This document shows, one piece after another, positions 12,392-57,600 of a stretch of DNA of 64,000 nucleotides; position 1 is the first letter of the stretch, and every line of letters begins with the position of its first letter. Source of the DNA: Lolliginicoccus lacisalsi (GTDB lineage Bacteria > Actinomycetota > Actinomycetes > Mycobacteriales > Mycobacteriaceae); assembly GCF_014841105.1 (NCBI RefSeq), contig NZ_JACYWE010000002.1, positions 158,434-222,433 of the forward strand, written 5' to 3'. Position numbers and translations under genes: made by a program. The notes below the pieces were generated by a model, which did not search any database, was not told the origin of the DNA, and was given only the letters and a program-made list of their open reading frames with translations.

Positions 12392-12457
12392 GGCGCCCAG
12401 CCGCGAGTGCGTCGGCGCCCAGCCGCGGGTGTGTTGGCGCCCAGCCGCGGGTGCGCG
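12392..12457. repeat. 22-bp tandem repeat leading into a 47-bp hairpin element
   Basis: Three copies of a 22-bp unit beginning GGCGCCCAGCCGCG start at 12392, 12414 and 12436. The last copy merges into the left arm of the 47-bp inverted repeat at 12453-12499. It lies just past the aglA stop. Confidence 0.8.
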
Positions 12458-12499
12458 AAAAACGACCGCATTCTTCACGGAAGCTGTCGTTTTTCGCAC
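12453..12499. repeat. 47-bp hairpin element, family A, copy 1
   Basis: Arms at 12453-12468 and 12484-12499 match at 14 of 16 positions, with the core GCGAAAAACGAC (12455-12466) perfectly complementary to 12486-12497. The spacer is 15 bases and itself contains a small CTTC/GAAG stem. It lies between the convergent aglA and the Rv2474c-like gene. The A5/T5 runs are inside the stem rather than after it, unlike a usual terminator. Confidence 0.88.
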
Positions 12500-12558
12500 T
12501 CTTGCGGGGTCGGCGTGGCAACCCAGCCCCGCGCGCGGGCGATCGAGAGCGGGGCGGG

Positions 12559-21793: not shown

Positions 21794-21922
21794 GGGCCGG
21801 GACAGGGCGGGCAGTCGCCATCGGTCGCGCGCGGGCGGGCCGGGGCAGGGCGGGCGGTCGCCACCGGTCGAGCGCGGGCGGGCCGGGACAGGGCGGGCGG
21901 TCGCCATCGGTCGCGCGCGAGT
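21794..21922. repeat. 43-bp tandem repeat, three copies
   Basis: Units starting GGGCCGGGRCAGGGCGGGC begin at 21794, 21837 and 21880 and run to the left arm of the 39-bp hairpin at 21921. Copies differ at a few positions. The 412-base gap 21622-22033 holds this array and the hairpin and nothing I can call a gene. Confidence 0.85.
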
Positions 21923-21959
21923 GGAAACTTTTCCTCCCTCACGCGGGCAAAGTTTCCAC
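21921..21959. repeat. 39-bp hairpin element, family B, copy 1
   Basis: GTGGAAACTTTTCC (21921-21934) pairs with GGCAAAGTTTCCAC (21946-21959) at 13 of 14 positions with an 11-base spacer. The outermost 11 bp are perfect. It is flanked by GAG on the left and CTC on the right, extending the stem imperfectly. Copies 2 and 3 have the same total length. Confidence 0.88.
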
Positions 21960-22033
21960 TCCCGCGAGGGCGCCACCCGCGCCACCGGCGGTCCAAACCA
22001 CCCGCGGGCCAAACCACCCGGGCGCAACCGTTC

Positions 22034-41056: not shown

Positions 41057-42259
41057 CAGGAACGAGGCGGCCCGTCCGGTAGTGGCGTAGAGCCCATACA
41101 TCTCGCCCTCCTTGCCCGGCGGGGTCAATCGCCCGAGGAAGGTGCGCGACGCCGACTGGGCCGGGCCGACGAAGATCGTCAGGATCAGCCCGAGGAACCA
41201 GAACGCCGCGGGCCCGTCGGCGAGGAACAGGCCGATCCCGGCGGCGATCATCGCGGCCAGCGATACCACGATCACGATCTTCGGGCCGATGGTGTCATCG
41301 AGCCGCCCGCCGATCAGCGCGCCGATGCCGGCGAGCACGTTGGCGGCCACGCCGAACAGGATCACGTCAGCCTCGTTGATGCCGTAGACGAGCACCGCGA
41401 GCACCGCGCCGAACGCGAACACCCCGGCGAGCCCGTCGCGGAAGATCGCGCTGACGATGAGGAACTTGACGGTGCGCGGGTCCTCCCGCCACAGCACCCG
41501 CACGTCGTGGAAGAGCTTGGCGTAGGCGGCCTTGACGCCCTTCCCGTGCCCGGCGCGCTCCGGCTCCGGGGGCAGCTCGGGGATCGAGAGGAACAGCGGT
41601 AGCGCGAACACCGCGAACCAGATCGCCGAGACGAGCACCGCCATGCGTACGTTGAAGCCGCCCTCGGTGGTGAGCCCGAGCAGGCCGCGCGTGTCGCCAT
41701 CGCCGGCGATGAAGCCGAAGTAGACCACCAGCAGCAGGATGATGCCGCCGAAGTACCCCATCGCCCAGCCGAATCCCGACACCCGCCCGATGGTGCGCGG
41801 CGTGGATACCTGCCGCAGCATCGCGAAGTACGGCACGTTGGACAGCTCGAAGGCGATCGATCCGAGGGCCAGCAGCGCCAGGCCGAGCCACAGGTAGTGG
41901 TAGTCGGCCTGGACGAAGGTCATCCCGAGCATCATCACGATCACGAACGTGGTGAGCAGCGCCAGTGAGCGCTTGCGGCGCCCGGCGGCGTCGGAGCGTT
42001 GTCCCATCACCGGCGCGAGCAGCGCGACGAACAAGCCAGAGATTGCCAGCGTCCACGCCAGCCAGGTCTCGGCGCCGACCGTGCCGGGCAGATCGCGCCC
42101 CACTGCATCGGTGAGGTACACGGTGAAGACGAACGTGACGATCACGGCGTTGAAGGCCGCTGATCCCCAGTCCCAGAACGACCAGGCCGTGATCTGGCGC
42201 CGGCTCGTTGCTGTCGCGATGCGGCCCTCGGCCGGCGCGCCGAAGCTGTCAGGGTGCAT
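40907..42259 (-). CDS. UMF1-family MFS transporter (Atg22-like)
   Basis: The 450-residue protein has about 12 helices. The UMF1 pattern is seen: WSFWDWGSAAFNAVIVTFVFTVYLTDAVG at the N-terminus, APVMGQRSDAAGRRKRSLAL in the helix 2-3 loop, and FELSNVPYFAMLRQVSTPRTIGRVSGFGWAMGYFGGI. Members export or import small solutes, in yeast vacuolar amino acids. The substrate is not known here. Its 3' end lies inside the 3' end of the convergent acyltransferase fusion gene, so the last 50 codons of each are antisense to the other. Confidence 0.9.
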   Translation of the reverse strand: MHPDSFGAPAEGRIATATSRRQITAWSFWDWGSAAFNAVIVTFVFTVYLTDAVGRDLPGTVGAETWLAWTLAISGLFVALLAPVMGQRSDAAGRRKRSLALLTTFVIVMMLGMTFVQADYHYLWLGLALLALGSIAFELSNVPYFAMLRQVSTPRTIGRVSGFGWAMGYFGGIILLLVVYFGFIAGDGDTRGLLGLTTEGGFNVRMAVLVSAIWFAVFALPLFLSIPELPPEPERAGHGKGVKAAYAKLFHDVRVLWREDPRTVKFLIVSAIFRDGLAGVFAFGAVLAVLVYGINEADVILFGVAANVLAGIGALIGGRLDDTIGPKIVIVVSLAAMIAAGIGLFLADGPAAFWFLGLILTIFVGPAQSASRTFLGRLTPPGKEGEMYGLYATTGRAASFLSPALFGLFSWLLDGARGGIIGLVLVLVVGLLALLAIPAPKGDRATDAVV

Positions 42260-42333
42260 GATCGAAGCCTAGGGCAATACGGGCACGGTGGGAGGCGCAG
42301 CGCTGCACGACGCACCGATGCTTCCGGCACCCT

Positions 42334-42362
42334 TGCTATGAAACAAGTTGCATAGCTACTAT
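42334..42362 (+). promoter_or_regulatory. Promoter with embedded PadR operator
   Basis: TTGCTA (42334-42339) and TACTAT (42357-42362) are 17 bases apart. Between them lies TATGAAACAAGTTGCATA (42337-42354), an 8-2-8 inverted repeat matching at 7 of 8 positions. The start codon at 42369 is only seven bases after the -10 box, so the mRNA is predicted to be leaderless. A PadR protein bound here would repress its own gene. Confidence 0.6.
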
Positions 42363-42368
42363 TGGTCC

Positions 42369-45079
<2,711 letters not shown>

Positions 45080-45160
45080 CACGAGGCTCCTGGGGCTAGG
45101 TCCGCTGGCAGCCGGGCCCTGGCAGCGGCCGGCAGTGGCTGGCAGTGGCTGGCGGCACGG

Positions 45161-45216
45161 CCCTGGCAGTGGAAACTTTTCCGTCCTCAGCGAGGAAAAG
45201 GTTCCACTCGCCAGGG
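45161..45216. repeat. 39-bp hairpin element, family B, copy 2, in an extended stem
   Basis: GTGGAAACTTTTCC (45169-45182) pairs with GGAAAAGGTTCCAC (45194-45207) with one mismatch and an 11-base spacer, total 39 bp. Outer CCCTGGC (45161-45167) and GCCAGGG (45210-45216) extend the stem after a small bulge. The left side carries repeats of GGCAGTGGCT (45121-45160). No gene is seen in 45080-45401 apart from this and the ribosome binding site of the next gene. Confidence 0.88.
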
Positions 45217-45401
45217 CCTCTCGCTGCCACTTCATGCGCGCGAGGTTTAGGCGCGCGAGGTCTTGCGCTCCCGCCGATACGGGCGAAACATGGGACATGC
45301 AGTGGTCGCGGCGGCAAGGCCGGCACCCGCGGTCGCTACCGCGCGACGACCACCACGACGACTCAACGCGGATCACCAAACCGCACGAGGAGTTCTGCAC
45401 C

Positions 45402-46001
45402 ATGTACATGCAAGTATTCCAGGGCCACGTCGCCGACGAACAACGCCTCCGCGACTGCCTCGACCAATGGACCCGCGACGTCCGCCCCGATGCCACTGGC
45501 TACCTCGGCGCCACCTGGGGATTCAGCGACGACGGCACGTTCGTAGCGATGGTGAGGTTCGACTCCGAGGAATCCGCCCGCCGCAACAGCGAGCGCCCCG
45601 AGCAGGGTCGCTGGTGGGCCGAGGCCGAGCAATGCTTCGACGGCGAGGTCACCTTCATGGACTGCCCCGACGTCAGCGAATGGCTCGGCGGGCCTTCCAA
45701 CAAGGCCGGCTACGTCCAGGTCATGGAAGGCCACTCCCCTGACATCGACCGCCTGCGCGCCATCATGAACGAGGAAGGCCAGCGGATGCACGAGCTGCGC
45801 CCCGAGATCATCGGCGGAACGCTCGCCCGCTACGGCGACGACGGCTACATCGAAGCCGTCTACTTCACCAGCGAGGCCGAGGCACGCGAGCACGAGCGGC
45901 TCCAGATCCCCGCGTCATGGAAGCCCGCGATGGACGAGGAACGGCGCCTCATGGGCGACGTGCGCTACCTCGACCTGCACCGGCCGCTCGCCATGAGCTA
46001 G
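45402..46001 (+). CDS. Protein of unknown function with two ferredoxin-like (ABM-type) repeats
   Basis: The 199-residue protein starts MYMQVFQGHVADEQRLRDCLDQW; GAGGAG lies nine bases upstream. The two halves look alike. MYMQVFQGHVADEQRL...GYLGATWGFSDDGTFVAMVRFDSEESARRNSERPEQGRWW can be aligned with GYVQVMEGHSPDIDRL...IGGTLARYGDDGYIEAVYFTSEAEAREHERLQIPASW. Each has the beta-alpha-beta form of dimeric alpha/beta barrel proteins (monooxygenase or stress-barrel type). No catalytic motif is recognised. It is cytosolic. Confidence 0.85.
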   Translation: MYMQVFQGHVADEQRLRDCLDQWTRDVRPDATGYLGATWGFSDDGTFVAMVRFDSEESARRNSERPEQGRWWAEAEQCFDGEVTFMDCPDVSEWLGGPSNKAGYVQVMEGHSPDIDRLRAIMNEEGQRMHELRPEIIGGTLARYGDDGYIEAVYFTSEAEAREHERLQIPASWKPAMDEERRLMGDVRYLDLHRPLAMS

Positions 46002-46068
46002 GAGTTCCCGGGGCGAGGCGTGCCTCGGCGCGCCCCGCCGCTCCCGCCGCTCCCACCGCTCCACGAGT

Positions 46069-46115
46069 GTGCGAAAAGCGACCAGTTTCCAGTCGCGAGC
46101 TGTCGTATTTCGCAC
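46069..46115. repeat. 47-bp hairpin element, family A, copy 2
   Basis: GTGCGAAAAGCGAC (46069-46082) pairs with GTCGTATTTCGCAC (46102-46115) at 12 of 14 positions. Total length is 47 bp as in the other copies, and the right arm has the shared GAGCTGTCG beginning. It is preceded by CCGCCGCTC-type 9-bp repeats (46035-46062). It lies between convergent genes. Confidence 0.82.
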
Positions 46116-46148
46116 TCCCCGCGGCGGCGGGGCTGTTCCGGCGTGCCG

Positions 46149-46568
46149 CTAGCATCCGCAGTCGTGCGAGCCGGTGACCGCAACGAGCGGGTCGGCCTGA
46201 GCCCGAGCACGCGCGCCCGCGGCGATATAAGGCAGCCCCTCGCGGACCCAGTACTCGAATCCGCCAATCATCTCGCGTGCCACGACTCCCGCCTGGCTCA
46301 GTCGCAGAGCGGCCTTGGTGGCCCCGTTGCAGCCGGGACCCCAGCAATGCACCACCACCGGCACGCGAGTGTCGTGGGTGGTGATCCACTCGTCGAGATG
46401 GGCGCGTGGCACATGCTGCGCGTGCGGGATGTGCCCCTGTTTCCACGCGTCGTCGTTCCGGACGTCGATGAGCACGAATGGGGAATCCAGGGTGGCGAGA
46501 TCAGCAGGGTCGATCTCGTGCCGGAGCTTTGCGGCGAAGTAGTCGATGGCTTCCATGCGCTCCAGCAT
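46149..46568 (-). CDS. Rhodanese-domain sulfurtransferase
   Basis: The 139-residue protein is a single rhodanese domain. FVLIDVRNDDAWKQGHIPHAQHVPRAHLDEWI is the CH2A-like motif. VVVHCWGPGCNGATKAALRLSQAG is the active site, with the persulphide Cys in the loop HCWGPGC. A closing EMIGGFEYWVREG follows. It moves sulphane sulphur. The C-terminal tail ends GSHDCGC, with two extra Cys. It is divergent from an Lrp-type regulator with a palindrome between them. The start may be ATG 46556 instead. Confidence 0.9.
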   Translation of the reverse strand: MLERMEAIDYFAAKLRHEIDPADLATLDSPFVLIDVRNDDAWKQGHIPHAQHVPRAHLDEWITTHDTRVPVVVHCWGPGCNGATKAALRLSQAGVVAREMIGGFEYWVREGLPYIAAGARARAQADPLVAVTGSHDCGC

Positions 46569-46630
46569 TCCGCGGGAACCCCGCTGGCAACAGGCTTGAT
46601 CCGTGGCAGATCCCGCTATGGACCGCCGAT

Positions 46631-46660
46631 TCCCTGGCATCATGGTGGCATTGCCAGGGA
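46631..46660. promoter_or_regulatory. Perfect 9-bp inverted repeat, likely Lrp operator
   Basis: TCCCTGGCA (46631-46639) and TGCCAGGGA (46652-46660) are exact complements with 12 bases between them. The site lies in the promoter shared by the Lrp gene (16 bp downstream) and the divergent rhodanese gene. Lrp/AsnC proteins commonly bind such sites and control a divergent target. Confidence 0.6.
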
Positions 46661-46675
46661 ATCGATGGAGGCGCG

Positions 46676-47125
46676 ATGGAGCTCGATCGGACCGATGCCG
46701 GGATCCTCGCGGCCATGCAGGAGAACGCCCGGCTCACCCTCGCCGAGCTGGGCAGGAGGGTGAACCTGTCAGCGAGCGCCGCGACGGATCGGTTGCGCAA
46801 GCTCGAGGAAGCTGGCGTTATCACTGCCTACACGGCCACCGTCGATCCACAGCAGATCGGCTATCCAATCATGGCTTTCCTGCGCCTTCGGTACCCGTCG
46901 AGCAACTACCGGCCCCTGCACGAGGTACTTGCCGCGACTCCCGAGATCATCGAGGCGCACCATGTCACGGGCGACGACTGCTTCATCATGAAGGCGGTGG
47001 CGAGCTCGATGGCCCACCTCGAGCAGGTCTCCGGGCGCATCGGGGCTCTCGGCAGCGTCACCACCAGCGTCGTGTACTCCAGCCCGTTGCCGCCGCGAGC
47101 GCTGCGCCCCCTCGACCGCCACTAA
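46676..47125 (+). CDS. Lrp/AsnC-family transcriptional regulator
   Basis: The 149-residue protein has an N-terminal helix-turn-helix (LDRTDAGILAAMQENARLTLAELGRRVNLSASAATDRLRKLEEAGVITAYTATV, residues 3-57). An RAM/AsnC ligand domain follows (IMAFLRLRYPSSNY... HHVTGDDCFIMKAVASSM). ATG 46676 has GGAGG upstream. It is likely to regulate the divergent rhodanese gene in response to an amino acid. The last 34 bases of coding sequence are repeated almost exactly at 47919-47952. Confidence 0.93.
   Translation: MELDRTDAGILAAMQENARLTLAELGRRVNLSASAATDRLRKLEEAGVITAYTATVDPQQIGYPIMAFLRLRYPSSNYRPLHEVLAATPEIIEAHHVTGDDCFIMKAVASSMAHLEQVSGRIGALGSVTTSVVYSSPLPPRALRPLDRH
47076..47109. repeat. 34-bp segment duplicated at 47919-47952
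   Basis: The sequence from ACTCCAGCCCG through GCTGCGCCC at the 3' end of the Lrp gene recurs at 47919-47952 with one difference (33 of 34). In both places it is followed, after a diverged GC-rich spacer, by a 47-bp family A hairpin. The whole block 47076-47215 was therefore copied upstream of the PPOX gene, with some loss. Confidence 0.88.
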
Positions 47126-47168
47126 GCCCGCGTGCCCCGCGCCCGTCCGCGAACCGCGGCCCGCGAGC

Positions 47169-47215
47169 GTGCGAAAAACGACAGTCCACCCGCCGAGAGC
47201 TGTCGTTTTGCGCAC
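47169..47215. repeat. 47-bp hairpin element, family A, copy 3
   Basis: GTGCGAAAAACGACAG (47169-47184) pairs with CTGTCGTTTTGCGCAC (47200-47215) at 15 of 16 positions around a 15-base spacer. It lies between the convergent Lrp and PPOX genes. Confidence 0.9.
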
Positions 47216-47248
47216 ACAGGCGACTCCAGCGCAAAGCCAAACGGCGCC

Positions 47249-47872
47249 CTAGTAGAGAGTGCCGCGCATCGTTTCGGCGCTGTAGACCCGCTCGACTTCC
47301 GAGGCCTCTCCAGCGCTGGGCTGCACCTCGCTGACGAGGCGCGCTGTCGATGGCAGCGCATCGGGTTCCCACGTGTCGTGCTGCCACAGCCGCGAGCGGA
47401 GGAAGGCGCGAGCGCAATGAAAGAAGATCGTGTCGATGTCGACGATGATCGCGAGGATGGGTCGATTGCCCTGCACGATCAGGTCGTCGAAGAAGGGAGC
47501 GTCGCGCACGAGGCGGGCGCGTCCATTGATGCGGAGCGTCTCGGTGCGGCCGGGGATGATCGACAGGATCCCGATCCGCGGGTTCTGCAGGATATTGAAG
47601 TAGCCGTCGCCGCGCCTGTTGCCGGGCCGCTCCGGGATCGCGATGGTGCTGTCGTCGAGGACATGCACGAATCCGGGCGGGTCGCCCTTGGGGGAGGCGT
47701 CGCAGTTGCCGTGCGCGTCGCTGGTGGCGATGACGCAGAATGGCGACCGCGCGAGCCATTGCCGGTCGCGCTCATGGAGACGCGCGCGTTCCTTGGTGGC
47801 CGCGCGCGGATGCACGTCACCGAGAATGCCACGCAGCGCGTTGGCGTCAGTGATGGGCTTCTCGTCTGTCGT
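47249..47872 (-). CDS. PPOX-class flavin-binding protein with apparent ACG start
   Basis: The 207-residue protein belongs to the pyridoxamine-5'-phosphate-oxidase superfamily (MSMEG_1061-like FMN type). It has SPFCVIATSDAHGNCDASPKGDPPGFVHVLDDSTIAIPERPGNRRGDGYFNILQNPRIGILSIIPG, then the RINGRARLVRD strand. The N-terminus expected for the family (about MTDEKPITD) reads TTDEKPITD here. The codon in the Met position is ACG at 47870-47872, five bases after a perfect AGGAGG. No ATG, GTG or TTG occurs in a suitable place; the first in-frame GTG is 19 codons later (47815). The gene is either started at ACG, shortened, or damaged by a point change. Confidence 0.78.
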   Translation of the reverse strand, partial: TTDEKPITDANALRGILGDVHPRAATKERARLHERDRQWLARSPFCVIATSDAHGNCDASPKGDPPGFVHVLDDSTIAIPERPGNRRGDGYFNILQNPRIGILSIIPGRTETLRINGRARLVRDAPFFDDLIVQGNRPILAIIVDIDTIFFHCARAFLRSRLWQHDTWEPDALPSTARLVSEVQPSAGEASEVERVYSAETMRGTLY

Positions 47873-47918
47873 GGTCGCCTCCTCGGCAGTCCGCCCCGCC
47901 CCGCGAATCCTATCCCGC

Positions 47919-48030
47919 ACTCCAGCCCGCTGCCGCCGCGAGCGCTGCGCCCGGGCCCGTCCACGAGGCGCGCGCCCCCGAGAGTGCGAAAAACGACAGG
48001 CCACCCGCCACGAGCTGTCGCAAATCGCAC
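47919..48030. repeat. Duplicated block with 47-bp hairpin element, family A, copy 4
   Basis: The first 34 bases copy the 3' end of the Lrp gene (47076-47109). The hairpin is at 47984-48030 with arms GTGCGAAAAACGACAG and CTGTCGCAAATCGCAC, whose outer six and inner six positions pair while the middle A-tracts do not. A 22-bp repeat (GAGCAGCGAAGGCTCCCGAG) follows at 48035 and 48070. This block forms the whole upstream region between the divergent PPOX and zinc dehydrogenase genes. Confidence 0.88.
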
Positions 48031-48136
48031 TCGCGAGCAGCGAAGGCTCCCGAGCATCGAAGCAACCAGGAGCAGCGAAGGCTCCCGAGCAGCACGAGCC
48101 CTGGCACGCCGCCCACGCGAGGGCTAGCGTGTGGTC

Positions 48137-49183
48137 ATGCGCTCCACGTTGATTCATGCCCCTGGTGATGTGCGGATCGAGAATGTGCCGGACCCCCGGA
48201 TCGCCGCGCCGACGGACGCCATCGTGCGGATCGTGCGCACCTGCGTGTGCGGCTCGGACCTGTGGGCCTATCGCGGCACGGAACCGGTCGATCAGCCACA
48301 CCCGATCGGGCACGAGTTCATCGGTGTTGTCGAGGAATCCGGGCCGGAGTCGTCGATCAAGCCGGGAACATTCGTGATCTCGCCGTTCACCGATAGCGAC
48401 GGCACCTGCCAGCACTGCACCAACGGCATCTTCACTTCCTGCGTGCAGGGCGGGTTCTGGGGCGGGCTGAACCGGGCGGGCGAGCAGCTCGGCGGGGCGC
48501 AGTCGGAGTACATCCGCGTCCCGTTCGCCGATGGCACGTTGGTGGCGCTGGACGATCATCCGGACGATGCGATGCTGCCGTCGCTGCTGACGTTGTCGGA
48601 TGTGATGGGCACGGGTCATCACGCGGCGCTGATGGCGAACGTGCGGCCTGGCGCGTCGGTGGTGGTCGTCGGCGACGGCGCCGTCGGGCTATGCGGTGTG
48701 CTGGCGGCGAAGCGGCTGGGCGCGGAGCGGATCATCGCGATGTCACGGCACGAGTCCCGGCAGCAGCTCGCGCGGGAGTTCGGAGCGACCGATATCGTGG
48801 CGGAGCGCGGCAGGGAAGGCGTGGCGCGGGTGAAGGAGCTGCTAGGCGGCTCGGGGGCCGATTGCGCTCTCGAGTGCGTGGGCACGGAGGCGTCGATGGC
48901 GCAGGCGTTGTCATCGTTGCGCCCGGGCGGCCATCTCGGATTCGTCGGCGTGCCCGCCGGAGGGCCGGAACTGCCGGTGGGGCAGATCTTCTCGAAGAAC
49001 CTCCGCGTGGCCGGCGGCGTCGCCCCGGTGCGGGACTATATCCGGGACTTGCTGCCTGATGTGACGGCCGGCATCATTGATCCGGGGCGCGTTTTCGACG
49101 CCGTGCGGCCGCTCGATGAGGTCGCGGGCGCGTACACGGACATGGATGGCCGGACGGCGATCAAGGTGTTGCTCGAGCCGTGA
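48137..49183 (+). CDS. Zinc-dependent medium-chain alcohol dehydrogenase
   Basis: The 348-residue protein is an MDR dehydrogenase. The catalytic zinc ligands are visible: Cys38 in CGSD and His-Glu in HPIGHEF. A structural-zinc type loop CQHCTNGIFTSC has only three Cys, so that site may be incomplete. The NAD(P) domain reads VVVVGDGAVGLCGVLAAKRLGAERIIA. It oxidises an alcohol or reduces an aldehyde, and the substrate is unknown. ATG 48137 lacks a clear ribosome binding site, and GTG 48131 is the alternative. It lies next to the duplicated hairpin block. Confidence 0.92.
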   Translation: MRSTLIHAPGDVRIENVPDPRIAAPTDAIVRIVRTCVCGSDLWAYRGTEPVDQPHPIGHEFIGVVEESGPESSIKPGTFVISPFTDSDGTCQHCTNGIFTSCVQGGFWGGLNRAGEQLGGAQSEYIRVPFADGTLVALDDHPDDAMLPSLLTLSDVMGTGHHAALMANVRPGASVVVVGDGAVGLCGVLAAKRLGAERIIAMSRHESRQQLAREFGATDIVAERGREGVARVKELLGGSGADCALECVGTEASMAQALSSLRPGGHLGFVGVPAGGPELPVGQIFSKNLRVAGGVAPVRDYIRDLLPDVTAGIIDPGRVFDAVRPLDEVAGAYTDMDGRTAIKVLLEP

Positions 49184-49289
49184 CGCGATCCGCGCGTAGC
49201 GGTCTCGTCACGAAAGCCTGAGGCGCGGCCTCGCGCGCAGTCTAGCCCGTAGGTTCGGGGACAAGCGTGTTGCCGATCGAGGAGCTGCC

Positions 49290-50483
49290 ATGCCTGTCCT
49301 GCCCCGTATTGCTCGAGCCGCTTTTGTTGGCTCGACGGTGATGGCTACCTCGTTGGCGACCATGGGCGTGGCGTGCTCGTCACCATTCGATGCGCTCGGC
49401 TCGGGCAGCATGTCGCCGTCGATGGGCGACGAGGATCTCGCGGAGACCCCACCGTTGACGGTGTCGACGGAGATCGATGGCCTGTCGGTGCCGTGGGATG
49501 TGGTGACGGCCCCGGACGGAACGTTGCTGACGGGCGAGCGCGCGGGCAGGTTCGTGGCCCGGCTGCCGGGCGGCGCGGTGCGCGAGGTGGCGGCGGACCT
49601 CTCGGACCTTTGGGCGCAGGGCGAGACCGGGCTGATGGGCCTGGCGCTGGACGAGGACTTCGCCGCCAATCGCATCCTGTATGCCTGCCATGGCTTCGAG
49701 GAAGGCGCCACCCGCGATATCCGGGTCACGTCCTGGACCGTGGCGCAGGACTGGTCGCGGCTCACCCCGGTGGGGACGGTCATCGCGGGCTTCCCCACCG
49801 TGACGGGCCGGCATGGCGGGTGCCGCATCCTCGTGGCCGAGGACGGCAGCCTCTACATCGCGACGGGCGATGCAGCGGTGGGCACGAACCCGCAGGATCC
49901 CGCCGGCCTCGGCGGCAAGGTGCTGCATGTGACGACGAGCGGTGATCCCGCAGCGGGCAACCCCGATCCGGCGAGCGCGGTATTCACTCTGGGGCACCGC
50001 AACCCCCAGGGACTTGCTCGGGATCCCGCATCCGGCGACATCTATAGCGTCGAGCACGGCCCGGACCGGGACGACGAGGTGAATCGCCTGGTAGCGGGCG
50101 GCAACTACGGCTGGCGGCCAGATCGGGCCGGCTTCTATGACGAGTCGGTTCCAATGACTGATCCGGTGCGGGTCCCCGGCGCCATCGAGGCGGTGTGGAG
50201 CTCGGGCACGCCCCCGATCGCCCCTGGCGGCATGGCGTTCCTGCAGGGGTCGCAGTGGGGCGAGTGGGAAGGCGCCGTGGTGATCAGCGCGCTGCGCGGC
50301 CAGCAACTGCGCTTCCTCAGGCTCTCCGACGACGGCGCATCGGTGGTGGCTGAGGGCAAGCCGCAGGAGCTCGATGGGGCTGTGGGGCGCATCCGCAGCG
50401 TGCATTCCCAGCCGGATGGCTCCCTGCTGCTGACGACCTCGAACAGGTCGGGCGATCGCGTCCTGCGGGTGCGCCCCTCCTGA
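49290..50483 (+). CDS. PQQ-type glucose/sorbosone dehydrogenase-like lipoprotein (LppZ-like)
   Basis: The 397-residue protein has a signal peptide with lipobox MGVAC (Cys29) and a short linker, then a six-bladed GSDH beta-propeller. The propeller runs from LSVPWDVVTAPDGTLLTGERAGRF through GETGLMGLALDEDF, TGRHGGCRI and FTLGHRNPQGLARDP to EHGPDRDDEVNRL. The motifs equal those of soluble PQQ aldose dehydrogenases. In mycobacteria LppZ is the similar lipoprotein. The start follows GAGGAG. Whether it binds PQQ is not proven. Confidence 0.9.
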   Translation: MPVLPRIARAAFVGSTVMATSLATMGVACSSPFDALGSGSMSPSMGDEDLAETPPLTVSTEIDGLSVPWDVVTAPDGTLLTGERAGRFVARLPGGAVREVAADLSDLWAQGETGLMGLALDEDFAANRILYACHGFEEGATRDIRVTSWTVAQDWSRLTPVGTVIAGFPTVTGRHGGCRILVAEDGSLYIATGDAAVGTNPQDPAGLGGKVLHVTTSGDPAAGNPDPASAVFTLGHRNPQGLARDPASGDIYSVEHGPDRDDEVNRLVAGGNYGWRPDRAGFYDESVPMTDPVRVPGAIEAVWSSGTPPIAPGGMAFLQGSQWGEWEGAVVISALRGQQLRFLRLSDDGASVVAEGKPQELDGAVGRIRSVHSQPDGSLLLTTSNRSGDRVLRVRPS

Positions 50484-50561
50484 TCCGGGATCGCGTGCCC
50501 GTCGCGCGGGTTCCGGCCATCGCCGGGCCGCTGCGCGCGAACGCACAGTACGATCTCCGGT

Positions 50562-51368
50562 ATGGCTGTTCCACATCCCACTGCGGAGAACTGTGCTGTC
50601 GTGACGGGAGCGTCGTCCGGTATCGGGATGGCTCTTGCGGAGGACCTGGCGTCGCGCGGCTACAACCTCGTGACCGTTGCGCGCCGGGCCGAGGTGCTCG
50701 AGGAGCTCGCCGGGGGCATGCGCGAGAAATATGGCGTCAACGTCGATGTGCGCGGCGTGGACCTCGCGGACCGGGGCCAGCGAAGCAAGCTGGCGGAGGA
50801 GATCGCGGCGCGCGATGTGGCGATCCTGTGCCTGAACGCGGGCATCGCGACGTTCGGCCCCCTGGAGCGCCTGGACCCGGACTATGAGCGGTTCATCGTG
50901 GACCTGAACGCGGTATCGGTGCATGACCTCGCGCTCGCGGCGCTGCCGGGGATGATCGAGCGCGGTGGCGGTGGCATCCTGATGACCGGCTCGGCGGCAG
51001 GAAACATGCCCATCCCCAACAACGCGACGTATGCGGCGTCGAAGGCGTTCGTGAACTCGTTCTCGGAGTCGCTGCGGGGCGAGCTGAAGCCGCGCGGCAT
51101 CCATGTGACGCTCCTGGCCCCGGGACCGGTGCGGCTGGACGCGCCCGAGCCGGAGGACGCCTCGCTGGTGGACCGCCTGGTGCCGGACTTCCTGTGGATC
51201 GATGCGCGGTACACGGCGCGCTTGTCGATCGATGGCTTGTTCCGCAACAAGATGCGCGTCGTTCCGGGCGTGCTGAGCAAGGCCATGTCCGCGGCGGGCA
51301 ATTACACGCCGCGCGGCGTGATGGCACCTATCGTGGGTGGAATCTACAAGAAGCTCGGCGGAGAATGA
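50562..51368 (+). CDS. cmrA: Mycolate reductase CmrA (SDR)
   Basis: The 268-residue short-chain dehydrogenase has NADPH site TGASSGIG at 15-22, Ser143, Tyr157 and Lys161 (YAASK). The C-terminal region is VPDFLWIDARYTARLSIDGLFRNKMRVVPGVLSKAMS. It resembles Rv2509 closely over its whole length (from memory). Rv2509 reduces the beta-keto group made when two acyl chains condense into mycolic acid. The neighbour orn (Rv2511 type) supports this. It shows that the host makes mycolates. A fadD starts 11 bp downstream. Confidence 0.93.
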   Translation: MAVPHPTAENCAVVTGASSGIGMALAEDLASRGYNLVTVARRAEVLEELAGGMREKYGVNVDVRGVDLADRGQRSKLAEEIAARDVAILCLNAGIATFGPLERLDPDYERFIVDLNAVSVHDLALAALPGMIERGGGGILMTGSAAGNMPIPNNATYAASKAFVNSFSESLRGELKPRGIHVTLLAPGPVRLDAPEPEDASLVDRLVPDFLWIDARYTARLSIDGLFRNKMRVVPGVLSKAMSAAGNYTPRGVMAPIVGGIYKKLGGE

Positions 51369-57344: not shown

Positions 57345-57600
57345 GGGCAGCCGGGGGGACACCGCGCCGGGACACCGCGCCGGGACGCTGGCGGGACACC
57401 GCGCTGGGACACCGCGCCGGGCAGCTGGGGGGACACCGCGCCAGGCAGCTGGGGGGGGGACACCGCGCCGGGAGTGGAAAGAAAACCCCCTCCAAGCGGG
57501 AAAACTTTCCACTCCCGGTCCGCCGAAGCCCGAGCCGCGGCCGCCGAACCCCGAGCCGCGGCCGCCGAAGCCCGCAGCAGCCCGAGCCGCCCCCGCCAGC
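57345..57600. repeat. Tandem repeats flanking a 39-bp hairpin element, family B, copy 3
   Basis: The left side (57345-57470) holds copies of GGGACACCGCGCCGG and GCAGCTGGGG. The hairpin is at 57474-57512: GTGGAAAGAAAACC and GGAAAACTTTCCAC, 11-base spacer, 39 bp. The outer 14 bp CCGGGAGTGGAAAG/CTTTCCACTCCCGG (57468-57481, 57505-57518) are perfect, while the inner A-tracts do not pair. The right side holds a 21-bp unit starting CCGCCGAA at 57520, 57541 and 57562. No gene is seen between the YciI-like and CoA-binding genes. Confidence 0.88.

Follow-up and report, generated by a model that had tools for sequence, protein, structure and literature searches.

A dispersed 63-bp dyad at gene ends of Lolliginicoccus genomes, a putative duplex-DNA site between whose copies genes are gained and lost

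Repetitive extragenic palindromic sequences (REPs) are, as far as excerpts of one account (PMC3733652) describe them, the closest systems in print to the repeat analyzed here. According to these excerpts, REPs lie mostly after genes, between tandem or convergent genes, and some families are lineage-specific. They are defined by a tag, an unpaired GTAG or CGTC at one end; the CGTC group is without a known enzyme, and untagged REP-like families occur elsewhere, including M. tuberculosis (PMC3733652). Here, a stretch of 64,000 nucleotides from Lolliginicoccus lacisalsi (contig NZ_JACYWE010000002.1, positions 158,434 to 222,433; hereafter the window) was analyzed, which carries four copies of an intergenic inverted repeat, termed family A. 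Like REPs, family A is dispersed, intergenic and located downstream of genes, with a preference for convergent gaps. It differs from REPs in its length (about 63 bp versus 20-40 bp), in its 15-bp spacer with an oriented core (REP loops: 2-20 or 4-5 bp) and in its ends, CCGCGAGTG...CACTCGCGG, which carry neither a GTAG nor a CGTC tag. Furthermore, its arms do not covary except at one column, meaning that a paired stem is not maintained, neighboring copies have direct polarity whereas REP neighbors have opposite polarity, and the Y1 transposase domain is lacking in two of the three species with family A. No published report of these repeats was present among the literature matches listed, in which one paper mentions the genus by name, and nothing like them was met in excerpts of accounts of stem-loops and of miniature inverted-repeat transposable elements (MITEs) (PMC1590033, PMC10969869). 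We propose that each copy is a two-fold symmetric duplex site of about 63 bp for a putative sequence-specific DNA-binding protein and acts as a gene boundary, a proposal to which we give an even chance.

Re-measurement of the window confirmed all that the original prediction, made from the sequence alone, had stated on coordinates and dimensions: the repeats at 12453-12499, 46069-46115, 47169-47215 and 47984-48030 are each exactly 47 bp and consist of two 16-base arms around a 15-base spacer. Arm agreement in the four copies was 14, 12, 15 and 12 of 16. Allowing up to two mismatches, the dyad pattern matched four times, compared to 0.03 times on average and once at most in 100 dinucleotide shuffles, and a single arm (up to three mismatches) was found seven times, with 0.22 expected. 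A start common to all right arms had also been described; GAGCTGTCG was found there in three of the four copies, while 12453-12499 has AAGCTGTCG instead. One copy does lie between divergent genes, but by our own gene calls three copies, not two, lie in convergent gaps. The repeat itself is 47 bp long, yet the conserved unit extends by about 8 bp on each side. Instead of four copies, 49 were counted in the genome, and the spacers, thought to be variable, turned out to be constrained to an oriented consensus.

To describe the family as a whole, the genome of the window (G000; 3.45 Mb, 24 contigs) and three congeners (G001, G002 and G003) were used. With up to three mismatches, the dyad pattern matched 56 times in G000 and the reversed control pattern 13 times, a clear excess as in the window shuffles. 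Among the 50 of these 56 matches that were listed, 47 were kept, C3:54776, C1:253405 and C1:379242 being excluded as unrelated. Two copies with a 16-bp spacer (C7:59980 and C13:15215) were added from a single-arm search with free spacing, which gave 49; they do not enter the column counts. The alignment of G000 copies was made without C1:156295, and a lone arm within a gene (C3:135071) was not counted as a copy. A weight-matrix scan of the fetched loci, in which spacers of 12-19 bp were allowed, yielded 49 copies in G000, at least 54 in G001 and at least 48 in G003, 151 in total. The latter two numbers are minima, because fetching was confined to loci around listed matches; these loci had originally been found with fixed spacing, so other spacings could be missed there. 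All 151 copies scored at least 40, every other dyad in the fetched loci scored 10 or less, and in first-order random sequence (212,836 bases) no dyad exceeded 14. The fetched loci thus hold one sharp class without decayed members, which fits selection on each copy.

Subsequently, the distribution of the dyad was analyzed. In a search of 41 genomes (the own genome and 40 relatives; up to three mismatches), 41 matches were obtained in G000, 56 in G001 and 47 in G003, and none for the control pattern. The dyad was absent from the fourth congener, G002, and from 37 genomes of other genera at this threshold. The exact pattern was found in 51 stretches among 84,980 species representatives, a set possibly without the genome of the window itself, and all 51 belong to Lolliginicoccus suaedae and L. 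levis. The arms are therefore conserved well beyond the four copies of the window, and in these scans family A is limited to one genus, in which three of the four species searched carry it. Rfam models run on the window reported only three tRNAs at gathering score and left the dyad unmatched.

The conserved unit consists of two inverted half-sites, CCGCGAGTGTGCGA-(A-rich 4)-CGACAG, around the spacer, with ACTCGCGG as the outer flank. The spacer measures 15 bp in 148 of the 151 copies from the three species and 16 bp in three. Columns 4, 12 and 14 show no variation among 296 arms; column 1 carries G in 295 of them and column 11 carries C in 292, in copies that were found by patterns naming the conserved bases with mismatches allowed. 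Column statistics of both arms are closely similar. When each copy was allowed to be flipped, the spacer gave the consensus CTTTGCGCGCGGGAG, and the oriented model reached a log-likelihood of -2236 (50 restarts), compared to a mean of -2413 and a best value of -2396 in 60 symmetrised sets (8 restarts per set). In total, 141 of 148 copies could be oriented, and the GCGC core of the spacer is displaced from the dyad axis by half a base. This orientation does not follow gene direction, which was rejected as its determinant: in tandem gaps, 29 copies point with transcription and 33 against it. In 7 of 80 orientable orthologous pairs, which come from six G000 sites, the centre is inverted while the flanks have stayed in place.

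Next, pairing between the two arms was compared with shuffled controls. In G000, 79.6% of cells were paired, compared to 79.6 +/- 0.6 after shuffling of the right arms, and 238 of 500 shuffles were as high (46 of the 47 copies with a 15-bp spacer were used). In columns 7-10, the observed and shuffled numbers of pairs were 130 and 129.5 (G000), 163 and 162.5 (G001), and 125 and 127.3 (G003). Between orthologous copies, single-arm changes made or broke a pair in 249 cases, kept a pair in 67 and fell on an unpaired position in 23, while changes in both arms kept a pair in 14, made or broke one in 31 and stayed unpaired in 18. As the arms show no overall covariation, the dyad is probably read on duplex DNA rather than as a selected hairpin. 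On the simplest reading, conservation would act on each arm separately, as a half-site of duplex DNA. Selection for a hairpin was rejected, since pairing over the stem as a whole equals the shuffled level, with column 0 as the one exception.

No copy lies inside a convincing gene according to our own gene caller, and one falls into a 40-codon frame of marginal score; the intergenic share of the G000 loci is only 12.3%. Over the three species, the median distance was 53 bp to adjacent stops (n=184) and 117 bp to adjacent starts (n=118). Among G000 gaps of at least 70 bp, convergent ones account for 17 of 48 with a copy and for 25 of 163 without (p=0.004), and divergent gaps are underrepresented (6 of 48 with a copy versus 51 of 163 without, p=0.01). 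With the three species pooled, which takes orthologues up to three times, convergent gaps make up 56 of 147 gaps with a copy and 75 of 536 without. Gene-end positions are mostly stable across species. Of the 49 G000 copies, 39 were matched in the fetched G001 loci by both flanks together with one or more elements at the orthologous place; two had both flanks and no element, two had one flank and an element nearby, two were split and four were without flank. In the fetched G003 loci, 35 copies had both flanks with an element there, seven had one flank with an element nearby and seven had no flank, and in either comparison a few neighboring copies share one counterpart. Coordinates and counterparts of the copies in the window are given in Table 1.

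Table 1. Family A copies and associated genes. Coordinates refer to the window unless a locus is named; the dyad rows give the 47-bp core plus the outer 8 bp on each side.
Feature	Coordinates	Strand	Context and domains	Counterparts in congeners
Family A dyad copy	12445..12507	.	core 12453-12499; convergent gap	in the orthologous gap of G001
Family A dyad copy	46061..46123	.	core 46069-46115; convergent gap	G001 and G003
Family A dyad copy	47161..47223	.	core 47169-47215; convergent gap	present in G001
Family A dyad copy	47976..48038	.	core 47984-48030; divergent gap	present in G003, absent in G001
Rhodanese-like gene	46149..46568	-	Pfam PF00581; between copies 46069 and 47169	
Lrp/AsnC-type regulator gene	46676..47125	+	Pfam PF01037; between copies 46069 and 47169	
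Gene flanked by copies 47169 and 47984	47249..47920	-	gene call	
Serine recombinase gene	L248:1489-2040 (G000 C15:112465-113016)			also L249, L250

Genes come and go between copies. At eight sites (S1-S8), two copies with at least one gene between them in one species correspond to a single copy in another. One of these, S1, lies in the window, where copies 46069 and 47169 correspond to a single copy in G003, which has neither the rhodanese nor the AsnC-type gene. At S5, a TacA-type antitoxin gene, an acetyltransferase gene and a third gene lie between two identical copies in G001, whereas G000 and G003 have one copy. At S3, copies in G001 and G003 flank the gene of a large membrane protein, which we take to be KefC-like; G000 has a single copy at this site. 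A ninth candidate (S9, C15:39034/39589) was dropped, as the intervening gene is present in G003; there it reaches the end of the contig, so a second copy may lie beyond. A gene pair located between copies C3:263157 and C3:265915 in G000 has its G001 counterpart next to another site; the encoded proteins are 70% and 61% identical. The rare arm GTGCGAATT[CA]CGTCAG, a variant chosen after it had been noticed, occurs in 2 of 98 G000 arms, exactly at the gene-pair site and at the site orthologous to the G001 location, in 1 of 108 G001 arms (the gene-pair site) and in 4 of 96 G003 arms (three sites). Also between family A copies, a DUF1016/YhcG-type nuclease gene was found as two separate frames, with the profile partly missing (L057, G000 C3:167502-168470). 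The gene between copies 47169 and 47984 of the window presumably encodes a protein resembling flavin-linked pyridoxamine-oxidase-like proteins; a 404-base stretch of it occurs at 74% identity elsewhere in G002 (C2:443744-444147), a genome in which no copy was found.

Near copies share their polarity. Neighbors less than 20 kb apart were direct in 34 cases and inverted in 7, compared to 35 direct and 29 inverted beyond 20 kb, so there are no long runs; an orientation marking the replichores was rejected on the latter numbers. When intervals below 8 kb were sorted by hand and orthologues were taken once, 16 were direct, 2 inverted and 1 differed between species. The shared polarity thus holds for 16 of 18 non-redundant intervals (p=0.001), unorientable intervals being excluded.

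Taken together, these results suggest the following model for a family A site. Each half-site would be bipartite, with patches of GTGCGA and CGACAG separated by one helical turn, A-rich sequence between them and CGCGAGT outside. As the half-sites are inverted and lie 31 bp (about three turns) apart from centre to centre, a protein dimer or tetramer could contact the DNA along one face, and the off-centre GCGC core would give the bound complex a direction. Such a complex would most likely form a boundary between neighboring genes, blocking read-through or anchoring the DNA, whatever the direction of transcription. The repeated sites may recombine, in which case genes between two copies would be gained or lost and one copy left behind, presumably as a side effect.

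Several observations weigh against this model. No binding protein was identified for the dyad, and the boundary role does not explain the shared polarity of neighbors. Divergent gaps are among those that carry a copy (pooled, 26 of 147 with a copy versus 169 of 536 without). In G002, the orthologue of the convergent gap at C4:95337, which measures about 180 bp with its copy in G000, has 4 bp and no copy, and the copy-gene-copy unit at C4:89156-90131 of G000 is replaced by a 62-bp gap. Other points concern pairing. Column 0 (T or A) covaries between the arms (p=0.016, 0.095 and 0.001 in the three genomes), and in G003 the outer eight columns pair above all 2000 shuffles (297 versus 281.6), mainly via column 0. 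Six copies were folded as RNA; five beat all 200 shuffles and the sixth beat 195, a strong folding that makes an RNA role of the element possible.

Ordinary homologous recombination or replication slippage between repeats might delete the genes, with no dedicated exchange function involved. Homologous recombination would suffice for the gene losses, and near copies are more alike than random pairs (39.0 versus 34.5 of 47 in G001). Moreover, of 59 indel rows of at least 200 bp in aligned loci, 38 had elements in neither species, 18 in both and 3 in one; this control of gene gain and loss is weak, as the loci were chosen around elements and one event may count in two species pairs. A crossover at the element centre was rejected. 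Site S8 in G003 looked reciprocal by eye, but a comparison of single with paired copies for a reciprocal exchange of halves gave 5 cases for, 10 against and 3 ties (18 comparisons; 5, 8 and 3 in the 16 comparisons without S9). Homologous recombination or slippage between repeats leaves the selection on the sites, their spacing and their positions unexplained. It competes only with a recombinase as the agent and is compatible with the protein-bound boundary proposed here; we consider it possible, though not probable.

An RNA hairpin, either a bidirectional terminator or a stabiliser of mRNA 3' ends whose stem is selected in the transcript, would agree with the 3'-end and convergent-gap bias, with the folding of the six copies and with the covariation of column 0. 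In addition, one of the three terminator-like sites in 42000-51000 (2.5 expected) sits inside copy 47169-47215, on the minus strand. On the other hand, neither the stem as a whole nor the variable columns 7-10 covary, and a stem needs neither a near-fixed, oriented spacer nor invariant bases. An intrinsic terminator has a T-run directly after the hairpin, and the flank ACTCGCGG is without it. The 26 divergent gaps with a copy and the two G002 gaps of 4 and 62 bp without one count against a hairpin as well. We therefore regard selection of the stem in RNA as unlikely.

A further possibility is that the dyads are recombination sites of a small serine recombinase of the genus, which would load and unload gene units like cassettes. 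The enzyme has 184 residues, with a Resolvase domain and HTH_7, and its closest PDB entries are those of a DNA invertase (4m6f and 3uj3), presumably Gin. It is the only resolvase-domain match in G000, with top matches of nearly equal score in G001 and G003, and its gene follows the same hydrolase gene in all three element-bearing species. Between these species, its DNA differs by 7-10%, like that of the neighboring gene, and its protein by 0 or 1 residue. With a ratio of non-synonymous to synonymous change (pN/pS) of 0.008-0.024, against a median of about 0.15, it is among the most constrained genes of those sampled (rank 3 of 236, 1 of 278 and 1 of 292), beside genes such as those which we take to be GatC and a Fur-type regulator. 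In G002, the genes that flank the recombinase lie at two separate locations; the single DNA match to the enzyme is elsewhere and frameshifted, and there is an additional, weaker resolvase-domain match. Recombinase sites would also account for the shared polarity of near copies, for the gene units present or absent at the eight sites and for the rare arm variant, although chosen after seeing, at both G000 sites linked to the gene unit. The link between recombinase and element is nevertheless a weak one of co-occurrence, and one species without both provides little evidence for it.

Crossover sites of Hin/Gin and of resolvases are dyads of 26-28 bp with an asymmetric centre. Family A resembles them in its dyad with asymmetric centre, in an inner CGACAG-N15-CTGTCG of 27 bp and in the A-rich stretches that adjoin the conserved patches; it differs in that its unit is twice as long and in the apparently dissimilar motifs close to the enzyme and its plasmid relatives. 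Homologues of the recombinase (E <= 1e-40) were found in 48 of 298 Mycobacteriales genomes including its own, the closest outside the genus being 73% identical, and 90 plasmid records, mostly of Rhodococcus and Prescottella, contain relatives at 60-80% identity (ten listed at 75-78%). Upstream of four plasmid relatives, TGTTTCA..TGAAACA and AGTGTTSCA-like motifs were seen by eye; at the same upstream place, the gene of Lolliginicoccus carries AGTTGTGCAACACT, which resembles them. The dyad was found neither in the 3.4 kb around the recombinase gene nor in the upstream stretches of the plasmid relatives. An upstream stretch of a Rhodococcus plasmid, GAGTGTTGCAAAAACC, was compared with the outer arm and not used, as by a rough estimate the likeness is near chance. 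Together with the failed centre-crossover comparison, these differently built motifs make the recombinase a distinctly unlikely partner of family A. Two 12-mers, AAACGCGATAGA and CAAACGCGATAG, form direct and inverted repeats after the recombinase gene (L248, about 2100-2200); each occurs 13 times in 54,660 intergenic bases of 462 kb of G000.

Sites of the integron type were also considered. The attC sites of integrons end in the motifs GTTRRRY/RYYYAAC. Family A shares with attC a length of about 60 bp, an imperfect dyad with an asymmetric middle, a position after genes, direct polarity in clusters, and genes gained and lost between copies. Its arms, GTGCGA...CGACAG, differ from the attC end motifs, and its copies are mostly single and spread over many contigs. 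PF00589 had 3, 5, 3 and 8 matches in G000 to G003. Two strong ones, which are probably Xer-like, are present in all four genomes, G002 included; this applies to these two of the matches, in a search for the domain rather than for IntI itself. A scattered cassette system, in which about fifty fixed, attachment-like dyads at gene ends and a housekeeping serine invertase would load, unload and shuffle single gene units (a toxin-antitoxin pair, nuclease genes, transporters) without an integron, appears very improbable.

A short mobile palindrome, either a REP-like element or a MITE spread by a transposase, would be consistent with many dispersed intergenic copies confined to one genus and with the presence in the window of another family of similar build; a 3' and convergent bias is reported for REPs as well, as far as the excerpts go (PMC3733652). 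Family A resembles MITEs in being short and non-coding, with inverted terminal arms and many copies, and differs from them in its stable orthologous positions, in that no target duplication was seen in the rows aligned and in the absence of decayed copies from the fetched loci. Seven rows had an element-free orthologous gap; four, covering three elements, were aligned and showed neither a clean insertion nor a target duplication, and three were too long to align. The spacers differ between most copies, so recent spread is not suggested. The Y1 transposase domain (PF01797) was not found in G000, G001 or G002 and had one match in G003, while the control was positive in 5 of 14 genomes; on this search, identity with REPs and their REP-associated tyrosine transposases (RAYTs) was rejected. 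No parent element was found by searches for the domains PF01797, PF00589 and PF00239. Spread as a mobile palindrome is accordingly distinctly improbable. A phage, plasmid or viral origin was rejected, as one copy used as query matched no plasmid or phage record and the exact pattern matched no viral contig.

The original prediction of a mobile or protein-bound element thus fares differently in its two parts. A putative protein-bound site is well supported by the asymmetric centre and by arms that are independent except for one column. Mobility is supported in a weak sense, in that genes between copies come and go, but most positions are stable, aligned empty sites lack a target duplication and a RAYT-type domain is absent from two of the three species with copies. 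That the repeats are not ordinary terminators is supported too, although a role in termination would still fit their 3'-end bias and the strong folding of the copies tried.

The second family of fixed-length dyads, 43 bp in length with the structure GAGTGGAAACTTTTCC-N11-GGAAAAGTTTCCACTC, lies at 21919-21961, 45167-45209 and 57472-57514 of the window and shares the outer GAGTG with family A. Ten copies were found in the fetched loci of the three species, all of 43 bp although 38-51 bp were allowed, and there are further short matches in G001 and G003. The window also contains a tandem array of 9-10 copies in steps of 27/27/33 bases (807-1171) and a 35-base periodic repeat holding GGTGGAACCCGCGCGGTGGC (609-783).

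Intergenic palindromes of bacteria are usually filed as hairpins or as mobile elements. The three sister species of Lolliginicoccus provide a clean case in which the arms evolve as separate half-sites of duplex DNA, with near-fixed spacing and polarity and at stable places. The testable claim that follows is the docking of a protein at some fifty gene ends. Should the gain and loss of genes between copies be driven and not incidental, family A would represent a novel route by which single genes are exchanged between genomes.

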